The position numbers were made by a program, and so were the translations under genes. A DNA stretch of 64,000 bases from Ardenticatena sp. (GTDB taxonomy: Bacteria > Chloroflexota > Anaerolineae > Ardenticatenales > Ardenticatenaceae): NCBI GenBank assembly GCA_015487975.1, contig WFOS01000052.1, positions 1 to 64,000 of the forward strand, written 5' to 3'. Below the pieces are notes generated by a model that had not been told where the DNA came from, made no database searches, and worked only from the letters and a program-made list of their open reading frames with translations. Below are positions 1 through 15,598 of this stretch, in pieces (the first letter of the stretch is position 1; each line of letters begins with the position of its first letter).

Positions 1-540
1 CCACCGACCCCAGCGCTCTGGCACGATTCCCTGCATCTGCAATCGCCTGGGCCGCCGCCAGCGCCTGCTTTGCTGCGTGTTGTGCCGCCTCTATCTCACC
101 GAGTTGCGCAAGGGCCTGCGCCACCGACCCCAGCGCACGGGCGCGAGACCATTCATCCTCGATCGACTGGGCCGCCGCCAGTGCACCCTCCCGATCGCTT
201 GCTTGCGCAAGGGCCTGCGCCACCGACCCCAGCGCTCTGGCACGATTCCCTGCATCTGCAATCGCCTGGGCCGCCGCCAGCGCCTGCTTTGCTGCGTGTT
301 GTGCCGCCTCCATCTCACCGAGTTGCGCAAGGGCCTGCGCCACCGACCCCAGCACTTCGGCGCGAGACCATTCATCCTCGATCGCCTGGGCCGCCGCCAG
401 CGCACCCTCCCGGTCGCCTGCTTGCGCAAGGGCCTGCGCCACCGCCCCCAGCACTTTGGCGCGAGACCATTCATCCCTGATCGCCTGGGCCGCATCCAGC
501 GTCTGGCGTAACGCTTGCCGCGCTGCGTCGGCTTTGCCCC
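1..540 (-). repeat. Coding tandem repeat: alternating 120-bp and 99-bp units (219-bp super-repeat, 40 aa + 33 aa)
   Basis: Motif ccaccgacccc recurs at 1, 121, 220, 340, 439 (spacing 120/99/120/99); both lengths are multiples of 3 and in frame with the minus-strand NTPase. Confidence 0.9.
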
Positions 541-2674
541 GTGTGTGCAATCGCTTGCCAATACGCCGATAGGCCTCAGCGCGCTGCTGAGGGTCGGTGA
601 TGAGGGTGGCGTAGCGCAGGGCGCGGTCGGCGTCGCCGAGCAGCACCAAAGCTTCCAGGGCTTCCACGGGCACGTTGGTGGCCAGGGTACGCACGGTGGC
701 ATGGAGCAGGCTCCAGGCCACGATGTGGGGCAAGTACTTCAAGCGTTTCTCCTTCACCACCAGTGCCTCGGCCATTGCCAGGGCGCGCTCTACGTCGGCA
801 GCAAAGAGGAGACGGGAGGGGTCGTGGGCTTTGCTGGCGGTGTACCAGGCGTGGTTTTCGATGAGTGCGCCCAGGCGGTCGAGGTCGTCCGCCTGGGCGA
901 GGTGGTGGGTCAGATGGCGGAAGGCGTAGCCCCCGTGGGTCGTCCAGCGGGTAGGGTCAGCCAGGTAGGAGTCGGCGATGCGGCGGTGATACGCTGCTCT
1001 GTCCACCTTCTCGGCTACGAAGTCGGCAAAGGATTGATGGATGATGGACCAGCGTTCCTCGCCGCGGCGCTCCCGGCGCAGGAAGCGCTGCCAGGGGAGC
1101 AGCACCCGCTCCAGGATCTCTTCGGCATCCTGGCCAACGAGGTCGGCCAGCCAGGCTACGGTGACCGGCTCGGCGGCTGCAGCCAGCAGGGCCAGGGTGG
1201 GTTTGTAGAGGTCGCGCCAAGCGGCGTAGCCTTCCTGGGTCTTGCTTCGCTCCATCTGATTCCAGAACAGTTCGTAATAGCCTCGCAAGCCCTGGGGCAG
1301 CCCCTCCAACCGCAGCGGGTGGAAGCCTGATTCACGGCGCTCGATGTCTTGGATGACATAGGTCAGGTACATGAAGTTGCCTTCGCTCTTTTGCTTCAGC
1401 GTGCTCACGAAGGCCTCGGTTTCGACCGATGCGGCCTCCAAGATCGGTGCCAGACGGCGAGCCTGCGCTCGCAGGTAGCGTTCGATGTCCACCTGTTGAT
1501 GTGGGTCATCCCAAGTCAGGGTGAAGGTGCGCTCGTAGTGGCCAGGCAGGGGGTACTCCCCAGGCCGGTGGGTAACCATGATATAGGTTCCTTTGGGCAA
1601 AGGCTCGGGGAGAGGAAGCCAGTAGCCGTGGGCAACACCTTCGGCTTCGTCCAGCGCGTCGATGACCAGCACGACAGGTCGGCCGCTCTTCGCGTGGGCT
1701 TTGCGGAGCAGGGTTTTGAGAAAGTTGCCATCCTCTCCGGCGCGGGCAGGCAGGTGGGTGTGTTCCAGCGCATACCGGCCGATGAGTTCGGCACAGAGGT
1801 GCTGCAAACAACGGGCGGGCGAGGTACTGCCTCGCGGACCGAAAAAGAAGATGGGGGCCTTGAAGTAGCGTGCCCACACCGCAGCCACGGCCGATTTCCC
1901 CAGGCCGGCGTCGGCCACCAGCCGGAAGATGCCCCGGTCGTAGGTGCTCATGAAGGCTTCTCCCTCGGCCAGTAAGAACTCTCGACCGACGAAGTGGCGT
2001 GTCAGTTCATCGACGACATCGGAGAAATCGTAGATGTAATCCTCCAGGGCGGGGTAATGGGTGAGAACAGTCTGATAGACCACATTGTGATGGCCGCTGA
2101 CAAGCACACTTCCCAAGACGTTGCCTTCGACAGATATCTTCCCCCCGGCAAAGAGAGTGCGTGCCCCGTCCCAGGCCGTTTGCAGGTTATGTAGGGTCGT
2201 TTCGAGTAAGTCTCGCAACGCCTCGGTATTGGCGGCGATGCGTTCCAGGGCGCGGCTGTCGAAGAGCGGTTGCAGGGCATCCTGCTGGCTCAGTTCGTCT
2301 TCCAGGGCGTGGAGGAAGTCGGCCAGGGCAGCAGTCGCTTGTTCCCGGTGCTGCTCCCCCACATCGGGCAGTTGGGTGGCCCAGGCCGTGGCCAGCCGCG
2401 CAGGGTCGGGCCTGTCGCGGCGGGTGAGGAAGCGGCTCAGTTCGGCGGCCACCTCGTCGCGGGTGAAGAAGGTCTCGTCCAGCAGAGCGGCGGCCCAGTC
2501 GGGGTGGTCGTTGGCAAAGCGTGTGATGGCGCGCAGTAGCGCGGTCTGGAAGGCCAGGCGGGCAGGCTCCCGGCCCAGCCAAGCGCGCAGGCGTGATTCA
2601 CCGGCATCGAGAAGGGCTGTCGCAGTGCGATCGATGACGTTGTTGGCAAGCGTCACGATGAGTGACTCGAGCAT
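1..2674 (-). CDS. STAND/NACHT-like P-loop NTPase with C-terminal TPR-like repeats (partial, continues beyond left edge)
   Basis: Open minus frame from ATG at 2674 to position 1 (not in ORF track because no stop is inside the window). Translation MLESLIVTLANNVIDRTATALLDAGE...; Walker A RLVADAGLGKSAVAAVWARYF near 1880-1930; Walker B-like VVLVIDALDEAEG near 1640-1680; C-terminal repeats AQALAQLGEIEAAQHAAKQALAAAQAIADAGNRARALGSV. Confidence 0.85.
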   Translation of the reverse strand, partial: MLESLIVTLANNVIDRTATALLDAGESRLRAWLGREPARLAFQTALLRAITRFANDHPDWAAALLDETFFTRDEVAAELSRFLTRRDRPDPARLATAWATQLPDVGEQHREQATAALADFLHALEDELSQQDALQPLFDSRALERIAANTEALRDLLETTLHNLQTAWDGARTLFAGGKISVEGNVLGSVLVSGHHNVVYQTVLTHYPALEDYIYDFSDVVDELTRHFVGREFLLAEGEAFMSTYDRGIFRLVADAGLGKSAVAAVWARYFKAPIFFFGPRGSTSPARCLQHLCAELIGRYALEHTHLPARAGEDGNFLKTLLRKAHAKSGRPVVLVIDALDEAEGVAHGYWLPLPEPLPKGTYIMVTHRPGEYPLPGHYERTFTLTWDDPHQQVDIERYLRAQARRLAPILEAASVETEAFVSTLKQKSEGNFMYLTYVIQDIERRESGFHPLRLEGLPQGLRGYYELFWNQMERSKTQEGYAAWRDLYKPTLALLAAAAEPVTVAWLADLVGQDAEEILERVLLPWQRFLRRERRGEERWSIIHQSFADFVAEKVDRAAYHRRIADSYLADPTRWTTHGGYAFRHLTHHLAQADDLDRLGALIENHAWYTASKAHDPSRLLFAADVERALAMAEALVVKEKRLKYLPHIVAWSLLHATVRTLATNVPVEALEALVLLGDADRALRYATLITDPQQRAEAYRRIGKRLHTRGKADAARQALRQTLDAAQAIRDEWSRAKVLGAVAQALAQAGDREGALAAAQAIEDEWSRAEVLGSVAQALAQLGEMEAAQHAAKQALAAAQAIADAGNRARALGSVAQALAQASDREGALAAAQSIEDEWSRARALGSVAQALAQLGEIEAAQHAAKQALAAAQAIADAGNRARALGSV

Positions 2675-2830: not shown

Positions 2831-3877
2831 ATGAGCCTATCCGACACCGAACGACCAGAGCAGGCCGCCGTCGAAGGCCCTGCTGAAGCACCCAGACCGC
2901 TTGATCCTGAGCAGGAACGATTGCTTGTCGAATTCCTAGGGTATACGCCGCAAGCCAGTGCAGATATTCCCGAAGGGTATCGCAGTGGGTTCGTGGCCGT
3001 CGTGGGGCGTACCAATGTGGGAAAGAGCACCTTCATCAACACCGCTCTGCGTCAAAAAGTCTCGATCGTTTCTCCCAAGCCGCAAACCACGCGGCGGCGT
3101 GTTCGCGCTATCGTCACACGCCCGGACGCCCAAATCATCTTCGTGGATACCCCCGGCATCCATACACCCGTCACCAAGTTGAGCGAATTCATGTTGGAAG
3201 AAGCCTATGATGCGCTCGACGACGTGGACGTGATCGTCTTCATGGTCGAAGCGACTACTCCCCCGCGCGAACAAGACCGGGAATTGGCGGCGCGCATTCG
3301 CGCTTCGGGGAAACCCACCATCTTGGTCATCAACAAGGCCGATCAGATCGAGATCTCGCTTGCCGAGGAGCGTGCAGCGCAATATCTGGCGCTGGGTGAA
3401 TTTCAAGAGTGGTTCCTCACTTCGGTCTTGGACCCCGAAAACGTGGACAAGATTTTGGATGCCATCGTGGCGCATTTGCCGCCAGGCCCCCCGCTCTATC
3501 CGGCCGAGCAGGTGACGGACATCACCGAGCGAGAATTGGCCGCCGAGCTGGTGCGCGAAGCCGCCCTGCACATTCTGCGCGAGGAAGTGCCACATTCCAT
3601 CGAGGTACAGGTGGAAGAATTCAGCGAACGGCCCAATGGCGTGGTGTACATTGCCGCAACCATCTTCGTCGAGCGTGATTCGCAGAAGAAAATCGTGATT
3701 GGGCGTGGTGGCGAGATGCTGAAACGTATCGGTTCGGCCGCACGCCGCGAGATCGAAGCGGCGTTGGGAACGCGCGTCTATCTGGATCTGTGGGTGAAAG
3801 TGCGTAAGAAGTGGCGACACGACGAAGCATGGCTCAACCGGTGGGGGTACAAAGTGAAGCGCAAAAAGAAACGCTAA
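2831..3877 (+). CDS. era: GTPase Era
   Basis: GRTNVGKSTFIN, DTPGIHTP, NKAD motifs, C-terminal KH domain (KKIVIGRGGEMLKRIGSAARREIE). Start at MSLSDTERP after aggag. Confidence 0.95.
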   Translation: MSLSDTERPEQAAVEGPAEAPRPLDPEQERLLVEFLGYTPQASADIPEGYRSGFVAVVGRTNVGKSTFINTALRQKVSIVSPKPQTTRRRVRAIVTRPDAQIIFVDTPGIHTPVTKLSEFMLEEAYDALDDVDVIVFMVEATTPPREQDRELAARIRASGKPTILVINKADQIEISLAEERAAQYLALGEFQEWFLTSVLDPENVDKILDAIVAHLPPGPPLYPAEQVTDITERELAAELVREAALHILREEVPHSIEVQVEEFSERPNGVVYIAATIFVERDSQKKIVIGRGGEMLKRIGSAARREIEAALGTRVYLDLWVKVRKKWRHDEAWLNRWGYKVKRKKKR

Positions 3878-3896
3878 ACCAACACGAGGGAGTGAC

Positions 3897-4355
3897 ATGG
3901 CGCACATTTTTCAGCTGAACATGAGCAAAGGGGGCGTTCCCAAGGTGCCCGTGCGAGAGGCCCAAGTCAACTGGCTAGGGGTGGTGGGCGATCTGCAACG
4001 TGATACCGAGCATCATGGCGGCCCCGAACGGGCGCTCTGCCTCTATCCGCTGGAACACATCATTGCCTTGCAAGCCGAAGGGCACCCCGTGTTTCCCGGC
4101 GCATTGGGCGAGAACATTACGACTGTCGATCTCGATTGGGCACGCATCACGCCGGGCACGTGCCTGCGCCTGGGGGAAAACGTCATCATCGAAATCACGC
4201 GCTACACGACGCCGTGCGAAACGATTGCCGCATCGTTCCAGGATGGGCGGTTCGTGCGCGTTTCGCAAAAGGTGCATCCGGGGTGGTCGCGGGTGTACGC
4301 GCGGGTGCTACAACCGGGGTATGTGCGGGTTGGCATGCCAATCGAGATTGTGTGA
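3897..4355 (+). CDS. MOSC domain-containing protein
   Basis: Translation MAHIFQLNMSKGGVPKVPVREAQVNWLGVVGDLQRDTEHHGGPERALCLYP... typical MOSC. Confidence 0.85.
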   Translation: MAHIFQLNMSKGGVPKVPVREAQVNWLGVVGDLQRDTEHHGGPERALCLYPLEHIIALQAEGHPVFPGALGENITTVDLDWARITPGTCLRLGENVIIEITRYTTPCETIAASFQDGRFVRVSQKVHPGWSRVYARVLQPGYVRVGMPIEIV

Positions 4356-4362
4356 GGCGCGT

Positions 4363-5052
4363 ATGGAACCACGCTATCATGCCGAACTGATCCACACTGC
4401 GCTGGGGCCCTACCTGGCGCTTGACGATCGGTGCATCATCATCCGTGCCAACATCATGCAAGATTTCTTCGGGCCAATCGGCCACCCAGAATACCACTTC
4501 GATGGCTCGCGCTTTGCCGAGGGGGTCCTTTACATAAAATCGCAGCGTGAAAAGGCCGTCGCTGCCGTCGTAGAAGAGGGGAACCGCAAAGCCGCCTTGC
4601 AGGCATTCGGGCGGCTTCTGCATGCCTGCCACGATTTCTACGCCCATTCCAACTGGGTACGTTTGTGGGTTGCAGCGCATGGGGGGATAGACGAGTGCGA
4701 CCCCGAAGAGACCCCCATTTGCGAAGACCCCCTCAGCGTGCCCGAATTGCGATCGGGGAAGGGGAGCGTCTTCTGGCACATCGTCTATCGCTTGCCATTC
4801 GTGGGGCGGTCCATCAAGCGCCTCTACCTGCCACCAGACTCCCACGAAGCGATGAATCTCGATCATCCAGGCAGGGGCCCTTTGTTTGCGTATGCGATGG
4901 CCGCGGCGCGCAAGCATACCATCGCCGAGTTTGCCTTGCTGTTGCAGGCCTTGCATGCTGCGGGTGGGGACGAGGCTGTGGCCCGTTTCACAGCGCGTGC
5001 TCCCGAGCGTTTTTACGCGCTTATGCTGAAAAAGCAAGGAGGGTTTGCATGA
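4363..5052 (+). CDS. Conserved hypothetical protein with Het-C-like HDFYAHSNW motif
   Basis: MEPRYHAELIHTALGPYLALDDRCII...; motif LLHACHDFYAHSNWVRLW; ATGA overlap with the next gene. Confidence 0.65.
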   Translation: MEPRYHAELIHTALGPYLALDDRCIIIRANIMQDFFGPIGHPEYHFDGSRFAEGVLYIKSQREKAVAAVVEEGNRKAALQAFGRLLHACHDFYAHSNWVRLWVAAHGGIDECDPEETPICEDPLSVPELRSGKGSVFWHIVYRLPFVGRSIKRLYLPPDSHEAMNLDHPGRGPLFAYAMAAARKHTIAEFALLLQALHAAGGDEAVARFTARAPERFYALMLKKQGGFA

Positions 5053-5687
5053 CCATCTACAACGACGCGCTGAGCGCATACATCACCAACGTCTTTGCTG
5101 CCGAGGACGATATTTTGCGCCAGATCCGTGCCAATATCGAAGCAGCTGGCCTGCCGATGATTACCATCCGCCCCGAAGAAGGGCGCTTCTTACAATTGTT
5201 AGCAAGAATCACGGGTGGGCAGCGCGTGCTCGAAATCGGCACGCTAGGGGGCTATAGCGGTACCTGGTTGGCACGTGGGCTCGCCCCCGATGGACGGTTG
5301 TGGACGCTGGAAAAATCGAGCAAGCATGCCGAGGTGGCGCGTGCCAACTTTGCGCTCGCAGGGGTGAGTGGGCAGGTCGAGGTTGTCGAGGGGGATGCGC
5401 ACCAAGTGCTGCCCAAGATGAGCGTGCATGCGCCGTTCGACTTGGTGTTCATCGATGCCGAGAAAGAGGGATACGCCGATTACTACGCCTGGGCGGTCGA
5501 GCATGTGCGGCAGGGGGGTGTGATTGCAGCGCACAACGCCTTTGCGCAAGGGCGGCTGGCGAGCGACCCAGAGAGCGAGGCCGCGCGAAACATGGATGCA
5601 TTCAATCGCATGGTAGGGGCAGACCCGCGCGTGCAGGCAACGGTTTTCCCCGCAGGCGATGGGACGCTGATCGCCGTGCGCGTCTGA
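5049..5687 (+). CDS. SAM-dependent O-methyltransferase family 3
   Basis: VLEIGTLGGYSGTWLARGLAPDGRLWTLE, DLVFIDAEKEGYADYY motifs. Confidence 0.9.
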   Translation: MTIYNDALSAYITNVFAAEDDILRQIRANIEAAGLPMITIRPEEGRFLQLLARITGGQRVLEIGTLGGYSGTWLARGLAPDGRLWTLEKSSKHAEVARANFALAGVSGQVEVVEGDAHQVLPKMSVHAPFDLVFIDAEKEGYADYYAWAVEHVRQGGVIAAHNAFAQGRLASDPESEAARNMDAFNRMVGADPRVQATVFPAGDGTLIAVRV

Positions 5688-5691
5688 GTAG

Positions 5692-5729
5692 GAGAAGGCG
5701 ACACATAGCACTCGTGTCGCCTTCTTCTT
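5692..5729 (+). terminator. Stem-loop terminator
   Basis: gaGAAGGCGACAC atagcactc GTGTCGCCTTCttc immediately after the methyltransferase stop. Confidence 0.6.
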
Positions 5730-5737
5730 GTGGTCAA

Positions 5738-5773
5738 ATTTATTTAAGATAATCTTTATTATCTAAAATAAAT
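5738..5773. repeat. AT-rich near-perfect palindrome (16-bp arms, 4-nt loop)
   Basis: ATTTATTTAAGATAAT-CTTT-ATTATCTAAAATAAAT, one mismatch. Confidence 0.85.
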
Positions 5774-5925
5774 CGAAACATGGAGAATGGAGGGTGGAGA
5801 CATCGGAGACAAGAGGTTGAGAGAAGCAGAGATTGGAGGTTGTGGATATCGTTGACACAGATGCAAACTTATGGTATCTATCTGCCCCATTCAACAACCA
5901 CGTTCGACAGTGTGCGAGGATATCC

Positions 5926-6276
5926 ATGCCAGAGCGAGCAGCTGAACGACAACGCTTGTTGGAAGAACGCAAAACACTCCTACACGAAATCGAGCGCCTA
6001 GAAGCCTTCTTGCGCTCCGAAGTCGAGTTCGAGCCAGAGGAAGGTGACCCAGACCTGATCGAGCGCGACAAAACCGCTTCCCTGCTGGCGAGCTTGCAAG
6101 AGCGGTTGCAAGAAATCGACGACGCCTTGGCCCATATCGAAGAAGGCACCTACGGCATTTGTGAGCGCTGCAAGCAACCCATTCCGCCCGAGCGCCTGGA
6201 AATCATGCCCGAAGCACGGTATTGCGTCGCCTGTCAGGAAATCATCGAACGCCAACATAGGCGATCTAGTTTGTGA
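5926..6276 (+). CDS. TraR/DksA family zinc-finger protein
   Basis: [26 protein letters not shown]...; [25 protein letters not shown] zinc finger. Confidence 0.85.
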
Positions 6277-6286
6277 AATTCCCAAC

Positions 6287-6320
6287 AGGGGGTTCGCCTT
6301 TCAGGCAACCCCCCTTTTTG
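6287..6320 (+). terminator. Rho-independent terminator
   Basis: aGGGGGTTcGCCTTTCAGGCAACCCCCcTTTTTg. Confidence 0.8.
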
Positions 6321-6355
6321 TGGAGTGTGGACAGCAACCAAAAAGGAGCGAACCC

Positions 6356-7015
6356 ATGCCAAATGTACACGAATCCCAACACCCACTGATCAAGCATAAG
6401 CTGACACGCTTGCGCGACCCCCAAACGCATCCTGTGGAATTCCGCAAGCTGGTCGAAGAAATCGCCACCTTGCTCGCCTACGAAGCCACCCAGGACATTC
6501 GCACCACACCGGTTCGTGTCAAAACCCCACTCGGCGTCGAAGCCGAAGGTGTCGAAGTTGCCGATCGGATTGGCTTGGTACCAATTTTGCGTGCTGGCTT
6601 GGGAATGGTGAGCGCTTTTCTCGACCTCATGCCCATCGCACAGGTCTGGCACCTGGGCCTCTATCGCGATGAAGAAACGCTGGCACCTGTCGCCTACTAC
6701 AACAAACTCCCCCCACGCGCCACAGTGGATGTGGCCATCATCCTCGATCCCATGCTGGCAACAGGGGGCTCAGCGTCGGCGGCGGCTACGGTGCTCAAAG
6801 AATGGGGCGTGGAACGCATCAAGTTCGTGGGGTTGCTGGCGGCTCCCGAAGGCATCGCCCACCTGCATGCAGAGCATCCCGACGTAAGCATCTACGTCGC
6901 CCACATCGACGACCACCTGACGCCCGAACCAGCAACCTCCAACGACCCACCACGGGGCTTCATCGTGCCTGGGCTTGGCGACGCAGGTGATCGTCTCTTT
7001 GGAACAGGCCAATGA
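6356..7015 (+). CDS. upp: Uracil phosphoribosyltransferase
   Basis: [45 protein letters not shown]..., [18 protein letters not shown] loop. Confidence 0.95.
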
Positions 7016-8052
7016 ACGCCTTTTTCATCATCGTGGTAGCGGTCGGCCTACTGGGCAGCGGGCTGACCACCCCCTTCTTCATGCACATGGGGGAACAGTG
7101 GGGGCTCGTGCAGGCACCTCTGCGGAATCGGGATGTTCACATACACCCCGTCCCGCGTATTGGCGGACTGGGCATGCTTGTGGGGTTTCTGGCAGCAGTC
7201 GCCGTTGCACTTTTGCTTCCTGTGCCACGCACCGACCCCAACGAATTCATCCGTCTGCGAGGGCTCGTCGTGGGAGCATTGCTGGCGGCGGCCATAGGCT
7301 TGTACGACGACCGCTACGAGCTCCCACCAGCCCCACAACTTCTGGCACAGGTGGCCCTTGGCATCGTCGCAGCGGCACACCTCATCTTCATCGAAATTTT
7401 TCGCAATCCTTTCACAGGTGAGTTGATAGGACCACTCCCCTGGTGGCTCGTCTGGCCACTCACCATCTTCTGGTTTGTGGGAACACTCAACACCATCAAC
7501 TTTCTGGACGGGCTGGATGGGCTGGCGGCGGGTGTTGCCGCCATTGCCAGCACCGTCTTTGCTATCCACATGGTGCGTCTAGAACAGTACAGCGTCGCGT
7601 TGTTGGCCTTCGCACTCTTGGGAGCAACCGTGGGGTTCCTCCCCTACAACTTCAACCCAGCACGCACCTTCATGGGCACAACCGGTGCCTACTTCCTGGG
7701 CTACACGCTGGCCGCCTTGGGCATTATGGCGGGGGCAAAGGTCGCCACCTTTCTTCTGGTCCTCATCATCCCTATTCTCGACGTAGCGTGGCAAATCGTG
7801 CGGCGCATCCGCCACGGCAAAAGCCCTTTCCATGGCGATCGTGGTCACCTGCACCACCGCCTGTACGACGCAGGGCTCTCGCAACGCCAGGTCGTATTGA
7901 CCTACTGGGGTATTTGCGCCCTTTTTGGCACACTTGCGCTCGTGCTGCCGACGCCTGTCTTCAAACTACTCGCAATTAGCATTGTCAGCTTGGGGGCATT
8001 GGCCTTCTTCTGGCACCTTGCACGCCAACAACCAGACAAGGCGGGGGCATAA
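7012..8052 (+). CDS. Undecaprenyl-phosphate glycosyl-1-phosphate transferase, MraY/WecA family
   Basis: Multi-[31 protein letters not shown] motifs; 4-nt overlap with upp. Confidence 0.9.
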
Positions 8053-14624: not shown

Positions 14625-15598
14625 GTGCGCTGAAACTCCACTTCCCACGAGTAGAAGCCCGGGCACAGCTGCCCGCGCTCTTCCTGCAAGCGGCAGTCCG
14701 CCTCGCTCGTGCAATAGCCTGCTGCAATCAGGTCGGCGTAAGCGGGTGTCATGTTGTTGAGTTCGCGCGTCTCTTCGCTGCGATAGGTGCGCCCCGTTTC
14801 GTCGCCGATGACACGTACCCAATAGCCGCCCGACATGACGAATTCAGCGTTGCCGGGTTGCCCCGCTTTCGAACCACTGACCAACACAAAGCGCCCATCT
14901 TCCCAACGCACTTCCACCTGCACCCCATCCAATGGTCGCCCCTGGGCATCACGCACGCGCACATAGAGAATGTTGCGCCCCGGACATCCGCCATTCTCCT
15001 CTTTCGAGAGCAGGCGTGCCGTGCGTACGACGAAATCCAGCGCGGGTGTTGGCGTGGGTGAAGGGGGCGTGCGTGTCGCCACATCGACGCGCGGGCGTGG
15101 TGTCGGTGTCGGCGGGACGGGGAGAGCCGTCGGAGACGGTGTTGCTGTTGGCGTTGGCGTCGTGGTTGGTGTCGGGGTTGCCGTTGGTGTCGCCGTCGGC
15201 GTCGGCGTCATGGTTGGCGTCGCCGTCGGTGTTGGCGTTGGGGTTGGCAGATACGCCGCCATTTCAGGCGGCAATGCCCCAAATGCACGCGCGAGCGCCG
15301 CCAGGGCAGGCGTTGCAGGATCGTTCTGGGCTGCGGTTGCTTGCAGATGCAAACGCAACGCCGCAGGCGCAACCTGTGCCCATATCAGGCGTTGTCGCGC
15401 TTGCTCGACATCGCCGTTCAGCAGAAACGCAATGGCCGTCAGGCGCAAATAGTCGGTGCGATAGGCTGCGGCCAGGTCGGCGGGATAGACGTTTTCGTAG
15501 GTAACGGGGTTGCGCACAAGCCCGTAAAACAGCCCAGCGCTCAATCCCACCATCAACGCCAACAGCCCCAACGCAAGGCGTCGTATCATGCCGGGCAT
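14618..15598 (-). CDS. Membrane-anchored hypothetical protein with long (TPTA)n linker; probable paralogue of the adjacent gene
   Basis: MPGMIRRLALGLLALMVGLSAGLFYGLV...; linker LPTPTPTPTATPTMTPTPTATPTATPTPTTTPTPTA; overlaps the downstream gene by 7 nt. Confidence 0.75.
   Translation of the reverse strand: MPGMIRRLALGLLALMVGLSAGLFYGLVRNPVTYENVYPADLAAAYRTDYLRLTAIAFLLNGDVEQARQRLIWAQVAPAALRLHLQATAAQNDPATPALAALARAFGALPPEMAAYLPTPTPTPTATPTMTPTPTATPTATPTPTTTPTPTATPSPTALPVPPTPTPRPRVDVATRTPPSPTPTPALDFVVRTARLLSKEENGGCPGRNILYVRVRDAQGRPLDGVQVEVRWEDGRFVLVSGSKAGQPGNAEFVMSGGYWVRVIGDETGRTYRSEETRELNNMTPAYADLIAAGYCTSEADCRLQEERGQLCPGFYSWEVEFQRTW
15060..15250 (-). repeat. Low-complexity coding repeat, Thr/Pro linker
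   Basis: Repeated gtcggcgttggcgtcg/gttggtgtcg units encoding (TP)n. Confidence 0.8.

Follow-up and report, generated by a model that had tools for sequence, protein, structure and literature searches.

Tripartite bNACHT proteins are known as bacterial defence proteins (PMC12169576), and conflict systems are described as characterised by the displacement of one effector by another (PMC7159879). Among repeat-based sensors, TPRs are known to be hypervariable on their ligand face, at positions 2, 5, 9, 12, 13, 33 and 34 (PMC1261162), and the TPRs of fungal NLRs are likewise variable at ligand-facing sites (PMC4986451). Highly repetitive WD40 proteins have already been described in bacteria (PMC5587647, as cited in PMC12222747). 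The gene analysed here lies at the left edge of a 64,000-nucleotide stretch of an Ardenticatena sp. contig (C52; hereafter the window). Its product is a bacterial relative of the immune receptors of animals, plants and fungi, a molecular switch with an exchangeable front end and a sensor tail made of repeats, and the gene is a bacterial counterpart of the fungal NLRs of "high internal conservation".

The window holds a partial CDS for an NNH2-NACHT-TPR STAND protein (1-2674, minus strand). Its frame (2-2674) is uninterrupted for 891 codons from an ATG at 2674 and runs off the contig at position 1; a longer ORF from GTG 2806 is unnecessary because the ATG at 2674 aligns with the start positions of relatives (MLLEPL.., MLESIF..). 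The earlier note's suspicion that the gene had been missed because it leaves the contig was justified, as the first base of C52 is window base 1. The first 91 bases of the window are found again at 220, so assembly halted within a repeat, and the contig break is caused by two 219-bp super-repeats. Fungal receptors with such repeats break in the same way in short-read assemblies (PMC12222747). On the other side, a divergent intergenic region (2675-2830) separates the gene from the era GTPase gene (2831-3877, plus strand), a conserved piece of the chromosome that flanks the insertion and marks its site. Elsewhere, the window contains an FMN riboswitch (RF00050; 25936-26094, plus strand, 92 bits) and a short tandem array of GTTGGC-like 6/30-bp units (15126-15248) that looks like a low-complexity linker.

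Within the genome, these repeats recur only at the right end of the 4,072-bp contig C2. Three further full units lie on that contig in the same orientation as the window gene, together with a C-terminal cap and a stop near 3505; the 3' end of the gene was placed there (L003:3505-4071, minus strand). The final 52 bases of C2 are identical to window 323-374, and across 196 aa its repeats and cap share 46% identity with the C-terminus of a complete same-genus relative. The two contigs are linked most strongly by synteny with the same-genus genome G001, in which the aldolase of C2 and era of the window (93% and 90% identical) adjoin on one strand, arranged as a C2-C52 join would predict. Collinearity with G001 extends to C2:3436 on the one contig and resumes at position 2763 of C52, and the NACHT gene is absent from the 161-bp aldolase-era interval between these points. 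Since aldolase and era are neighbours in G001 without the gene, C2 and C52 are neighbours here and join in frame. By this collinearity, the gene is an accessory insertion relative to G001, or was lost there. Between C2 and C52 no less than 64 bp of the array must be missing, since a shorter gap would break the 219-bp register or the frame (the register was worked by hand, the frame was checked), and the joined protein has at least about 1,101 aa; further super-units may be missing. There was no early frameshift in the flanking sequence, the 3' part on C2 being open. In another genome, a direct relative persists as a broken remnant (G005:C47, L039:4446-5475) with NNH2 and the linker, followed by the start of the repeat region in another frame, while the NTPase is gone.

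The central NACHT-type STAND NTPase (1475-1993, minus strand) has an alpha/beta model, a Walker A motif ADAGLGKS (K260) and a NACHT-like Walker B motif VIDALDEA (D339-A344; DALDEA 339-344), and an alignment of nine family members showed G-x-G-K and DxLDEA to be invariant. The domain scored 25.4 bits against Pfam NPHP3_N (cutoff 24.8), and PF05729 NACHT was not reported for the window protein, with subthreshold matches in relatives. A helical lid, a winged helix and the helices after them (residues about 401-640; 755-1474, minus strand) were assigned from a weak TANC1 lid match, the model and the fold match to 6mfv, a solved STAND-TPR protein that the NTPase and repeats together match structurally with E 3.9e-9. 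Motifs, model and fold match support the earlier note's proposal of a STAND/NACHT-like NTPase with a repeat sensor. Profile searches gave no metabolic family, and NCBIfam returned just a weak, subthreshold type I restriction match that was taken as chance.

Relatives of the NTPase core occur in Chloroflexota, Cyanobacteria, Proteobacteria, Bacteroidales, Actinomadura, Desulfosarcina and a Phycisphaerae MAG; scanning contigs with the whole protein gave no match, and scanning them with the core alignment gave 11 loci. The nearest full-length relative, in an Anaerolineae MAG (L146), shares 53% identity in the NTPase and has the same TPRs, and it carries a CHAT protease (PF12770, E 2e-25) where NNH2 stands here. 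The same place is taken by a trypsin-like protease in L038 (1.9e-16) and on a Bradyrhizobium plasmid (4.4e-11), and by a TIR domain in L044 (7e-11), which makes the N-terminal domain a swappable module. A phage or plasmid origin of the gene was rejected: there was no phage match, and plasmid matches covered the NTPase part only, at 43% at most. One of these, on the conjugative Rhizobium jaguaris plasmid pRCCGE525a (L133:1780-7584, 43%), is without TPRs of this type; a small protein is encoded upstream of it, and an S8 peptidase with its inhibitor-like gene lies nearby. Another NTPase relative, on Rhizobium johnstonii plasmid pRlX2 (L135:3218-5173), has an N-terminus that looks transglutaminase-like by eye and received no Pfam name.

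The exchange of N-termini bears on the possibility that the protein is a non-immune STAND regulator of the MalT/AfsR kind, with the NTPase-TPR part sensing a metabolite or partner and the N-domain signalling to transcription or metabolism. The structure of a maltose-system regulator (8bob) was indeed among the fold matches, and defence genes are not nearby; no defence island adjoins the gene, which has era and ordinary genes to its right and the aldolase to its left. However, Pfam finds no DNA-binding output domain, relatives have proteases or TIR at the same place, and presence/absence together with repeat turnover would be unusual for a housekeeping regulator, all of which makes this reading very improbable.

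In the window protein, the swappable position is occupied by an all-helical domain (residues about 1-170; 2165-2674, minus strand; model helical, pLDDT 88.8). The suggestion that this domain is undescribed had to be dropped, because on its own it scored 29.6 bits against Pfam NNH2 (PF22734; cutoff 27), with the match covering residues 67-153 (2216-2476). Within the whole 891-aa protein the NNH2 score was 24.5 bits, and it was above cutoff in the genome scan. NNH2 was matched by 12 of the 14 members of the domain's family alignment and was found in 14 of 399 genomes of the phylum. The model had no match better than E 0.5 among solved folds (PDB). No catalytic signature was recognised in NNH2, which may therefore be either an adaptor or a non-enzymatic executioner. 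A genome scan found no second NNH2 gene for homotypic recruitment in this genome. In bacterial amyloid NLR signalosomes (BASS), the receptor shares an N-terminal amyloid motif with a BELL, CHAT or TIR effector encoded next to it, whereas inspection by eye recognised no effector gene among the neighbouring ORFs here. A Gly/Asn-rich beta-type linker, GGKISVEGNVLGSVLVSGHHNVV (residues 177-199; 2078-2146, minus strand), unfolded in the model, sits between domains of a single protein, and a similar Gly/Asn linker precedes the NTPase in relatives with several other N-terminal domains.

NNH2 is also found on NACHT-TPR proteins, on nSTAND1/AAA proteins (L122, which has a weak EAD10 match as well), on a NACHT-HEAT protein (L127), and on NB-ARC-type proteins with WD40 repeats (L117, NB-ARC-like; L046, NB-ARC by Pfam). 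In L117 (G218; 3049-7677), NNH2 is followed by the NB-ARC-like NTPase and then by many near-identical WD40 repeats, which places the domain on a second, independently amplified repeat class. In G004 (L037:3691-6696, G004:C78) NNH2 is encoded by its own ORF, overlapping the start of an NTPase-TPR ORF, and that contig likewise ends within repeats.

The C-terminal part consists of TPR-like sensor repeats, helix pairs that begin near residue 680 and continue to the end of the contig (2-637, minus strand), as judged from a weak TPR_12 match, the model and matches to LGN TPRs. All on the minus strand, units of 33 aa (residues 738-770, 365-463; residues 811-843, 146-244) alternate with units of 40 aa (residues 771-810, 245-364; residues 844-883, 26-145). 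At the DNA level they form two super-repeats of 219 bp (1-219 and 220-438, minus strand), 73 aa each and 146 aa together, which are 96% identical (TRF score 842), far beyond chance; they are not one copy assembled twice, as the copies differ at several bases. A recent expansion of the repeats, suspected from the start, is borne out by this identity, and repeats in other genes were far less similar to each other than these super-repeats. The model shows helix-turn-helix repeats (pLDDT about 90), whose best solved fold relatives are 6mfv, the STAND-TPR protein named above, and the LGN TPRs; LGN was also the best sequence match, and a viral fold library returned TPR or ATPase look-alikes only. 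Diversification by a DGR was considered and rejected, since no template was found: the assembly (94% complete) holds no further repeat copy beyond C52 and C2, and there was no C-type lectin match.

To locate the variation, repeats from 18 arrays were aligned by an anchor pattern. Variability peaks at the two residues that directly precede the RA anchor (E-1 and E-2), which are within the top three variable columns in 12/17 and 11/17 arrays, respectively; the third residue in helix A is a further peak. With repeat position counted as TPR position plus one, this third residue corresponds to TPR 2, while the pre-RA residues fall in a loop near TPR 33/34; with units of 33 and not 34 aa, this placement is approximate. 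The ligand-face (concave) positions, taken as the equivalents of TPR 2, 5, 9, 12, 33 and 34, were more variable than exposed convex positions, picked by the analyst from the TPR pattern and not from coordinates, in 15 of the 18 arrays, not all of which are independent as some share a genome (mean entropy 1.23 vs 0.88, Wilcoxon p=0.0012). Anchor columns, conserved by construction, lie outside both sets.

Codon comparisons were more ambiguous. Within the array of the window and C2 (7 units), pN was 0.31 and pS 0.09 at variable sites, against 0.135 and 0.209 at other sites, while pooling the arrays gave 0.376 and 0.387 at variable sites and 0.171 and 0.290 at others, a contrast that is descriptive because the variable sites were picked after the entropies had been seen. 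Constraint at the variable sites is at least relaxed, and the single arrays, and these alone, suggest diversifying selection; the pooled pN/pS of about 1 leaves room for relaxed constraint. This bears on whether the repeats are simply unstable DNA, turned over by slippage and homogenisation without selection on binding, the variable sites being just exposed residues. Such an account would explain the pooled ratio near 1 and the raised pS at the same sites, and helix ends and loops are commonly variable. It nevertheless seems unlikely, because concave exposed residues vary more than convex exposed ones in the comparison above, and because in many arrays the units differ in length by 4 or 7 residues, which is close to one or two turns of a helix and keeps the helical phase. 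Recent repeat copying together with variation at the usual target-contact sites suggests a fast-changing sensor.

I therefore consider the gene probably to encode an accessory NLR-like receptor, with a TPR sensor that diversifies by tandem recombination and an N-terminus that recruits, or is, the effector. Counting against this reading, the gene stands beside no defence island, NNH2 lacks a known catalytic motif or function and a match among solved folds, and the pooled pN/pS at variable sites is about 1. In such a receptor, the groove of the TPR solenoid would hold a ligand, either a protein or a peptide, and binding would release the NACHT/STAND NTPase. By analogy with STAND proteins (PMC12169576), the released NTPase would oligomerise with ATP and cluster the N-terminal NNH2 domains, which would then be effectors themselves, or recruit one, so that the cell is damaged or arrested. 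Intragenic tandem recombination would multiply repeat units, and substitutions at ligand-face positions could then alter specificity. A role in defence or non-self recognition, antiphage or allorecognition, would fit this machinery, with phage defence most likely the leading role and self/non-self recognition second. As a receptor for allorecognition or kin discrimination, the same machine would use its TPR tail to recognise products of own-kind strains instead of phage, as fungal HNWD proteins do. High internal conservation with variable ligand-face sites is the pattern of fungal incompatibility (PMC4986451), and the gene is present or absent between close relatives, but neither cell fusion nor exchange between cells is known for this organism, and I consider this reading improbable.

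Returning to the receptor reading with phage defence as its leading role, a wider extension, tentative and less likely than not, is that NNH2-NACHT-TPR genes form a bacterial repertoire of self-diversifying immune receptors. Intragenic tandem recombination among TPR units, which differ chiefly where they contact ligand, would rewrite specificity within a lineage and need no retroelement, as happens in fungal allorecognition; breaks inside these genes in short-read assemblies would lead to their being undercounted. Such receptor genes stop at contig borders in draft genomes, here and in several relatives, so that defence-gene surveys will miss or truncate them. The empty site and the effector-swapped relatives make the function testable.

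Compared with described systems, the gene class is known and its N-domain is known to Pfam. Kinship with Avs (AVAST) proteins, which the earlier note had raised, was not borne out. Although both have a STAND NTPase with a TPR-like sensor, the PADLOC Avs1b match was weak (32 bits), covered the NTPase/early TPR part (profile 313-756, 444 of 1,924 positions, under a quarter) and came without full-length similarity, and membership was rejected; this protein has no Avs effector, and its repeats are near-identical. With the bNACHT antiphage proteins (PMC12169576) it shares the order of N-terminal effector or adaptor, central NACHT and C-terminal sensor, but those carry SNaCT or NCH1 where this gene has a TPR array, and here NPHP3_N, not Pfam NACHT, is above cutoff. 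The N-domain is shared with the NNH2 family (PF22734), mapped here on several NTPase/repeat classes and as a separate ORF. Conflict systems of multicellular bacteria with effector-associated domains (PMC7159879, PMC8195603) are likewise found in Chloroflexi and surround STAND NTPases with exchangeable effectors of trypsin, TIR and caspase-like type, but they include ternary vWA-MoxR genes, none of which was seen beside this gene. In the literature searched, no paper dealt with the concerted evolution of TPRs in NLR-like proteins of bacteria, although such papers may exist.

The likeness to fungal NLRs of high internal conservation (Podospora HNWD, TPR/ANK NLRs; PMC4986451, PMC12222747) extends to the tripartite layout, here an N-terminal effector or adaptor, a central switch and C-terminal superstructure repeats, to near-identical, recently amplified repeats, to the variable concave TPR face, and to repeats that are spread over two scaffolds in short-read assemblies. 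High internal conservation denotes more than 85% identity over at least 100 aa with intragenic amplification, and the super-repeats, together 146 aa, are 96% identical as DNA. In contrast to the HET/HeLo N-terminus of the fungal proteins, this bacterial gene carries NNH2, and no allelic series or incompatibility phenotype is known for it. Recently amplified TPRs, ligand-face variability and effector exchange are a notable combination in bacteria, and in this locus the fungal pattern, near-identical receptor repeats that vary on the ligand face, has a concrete example from bacteria.
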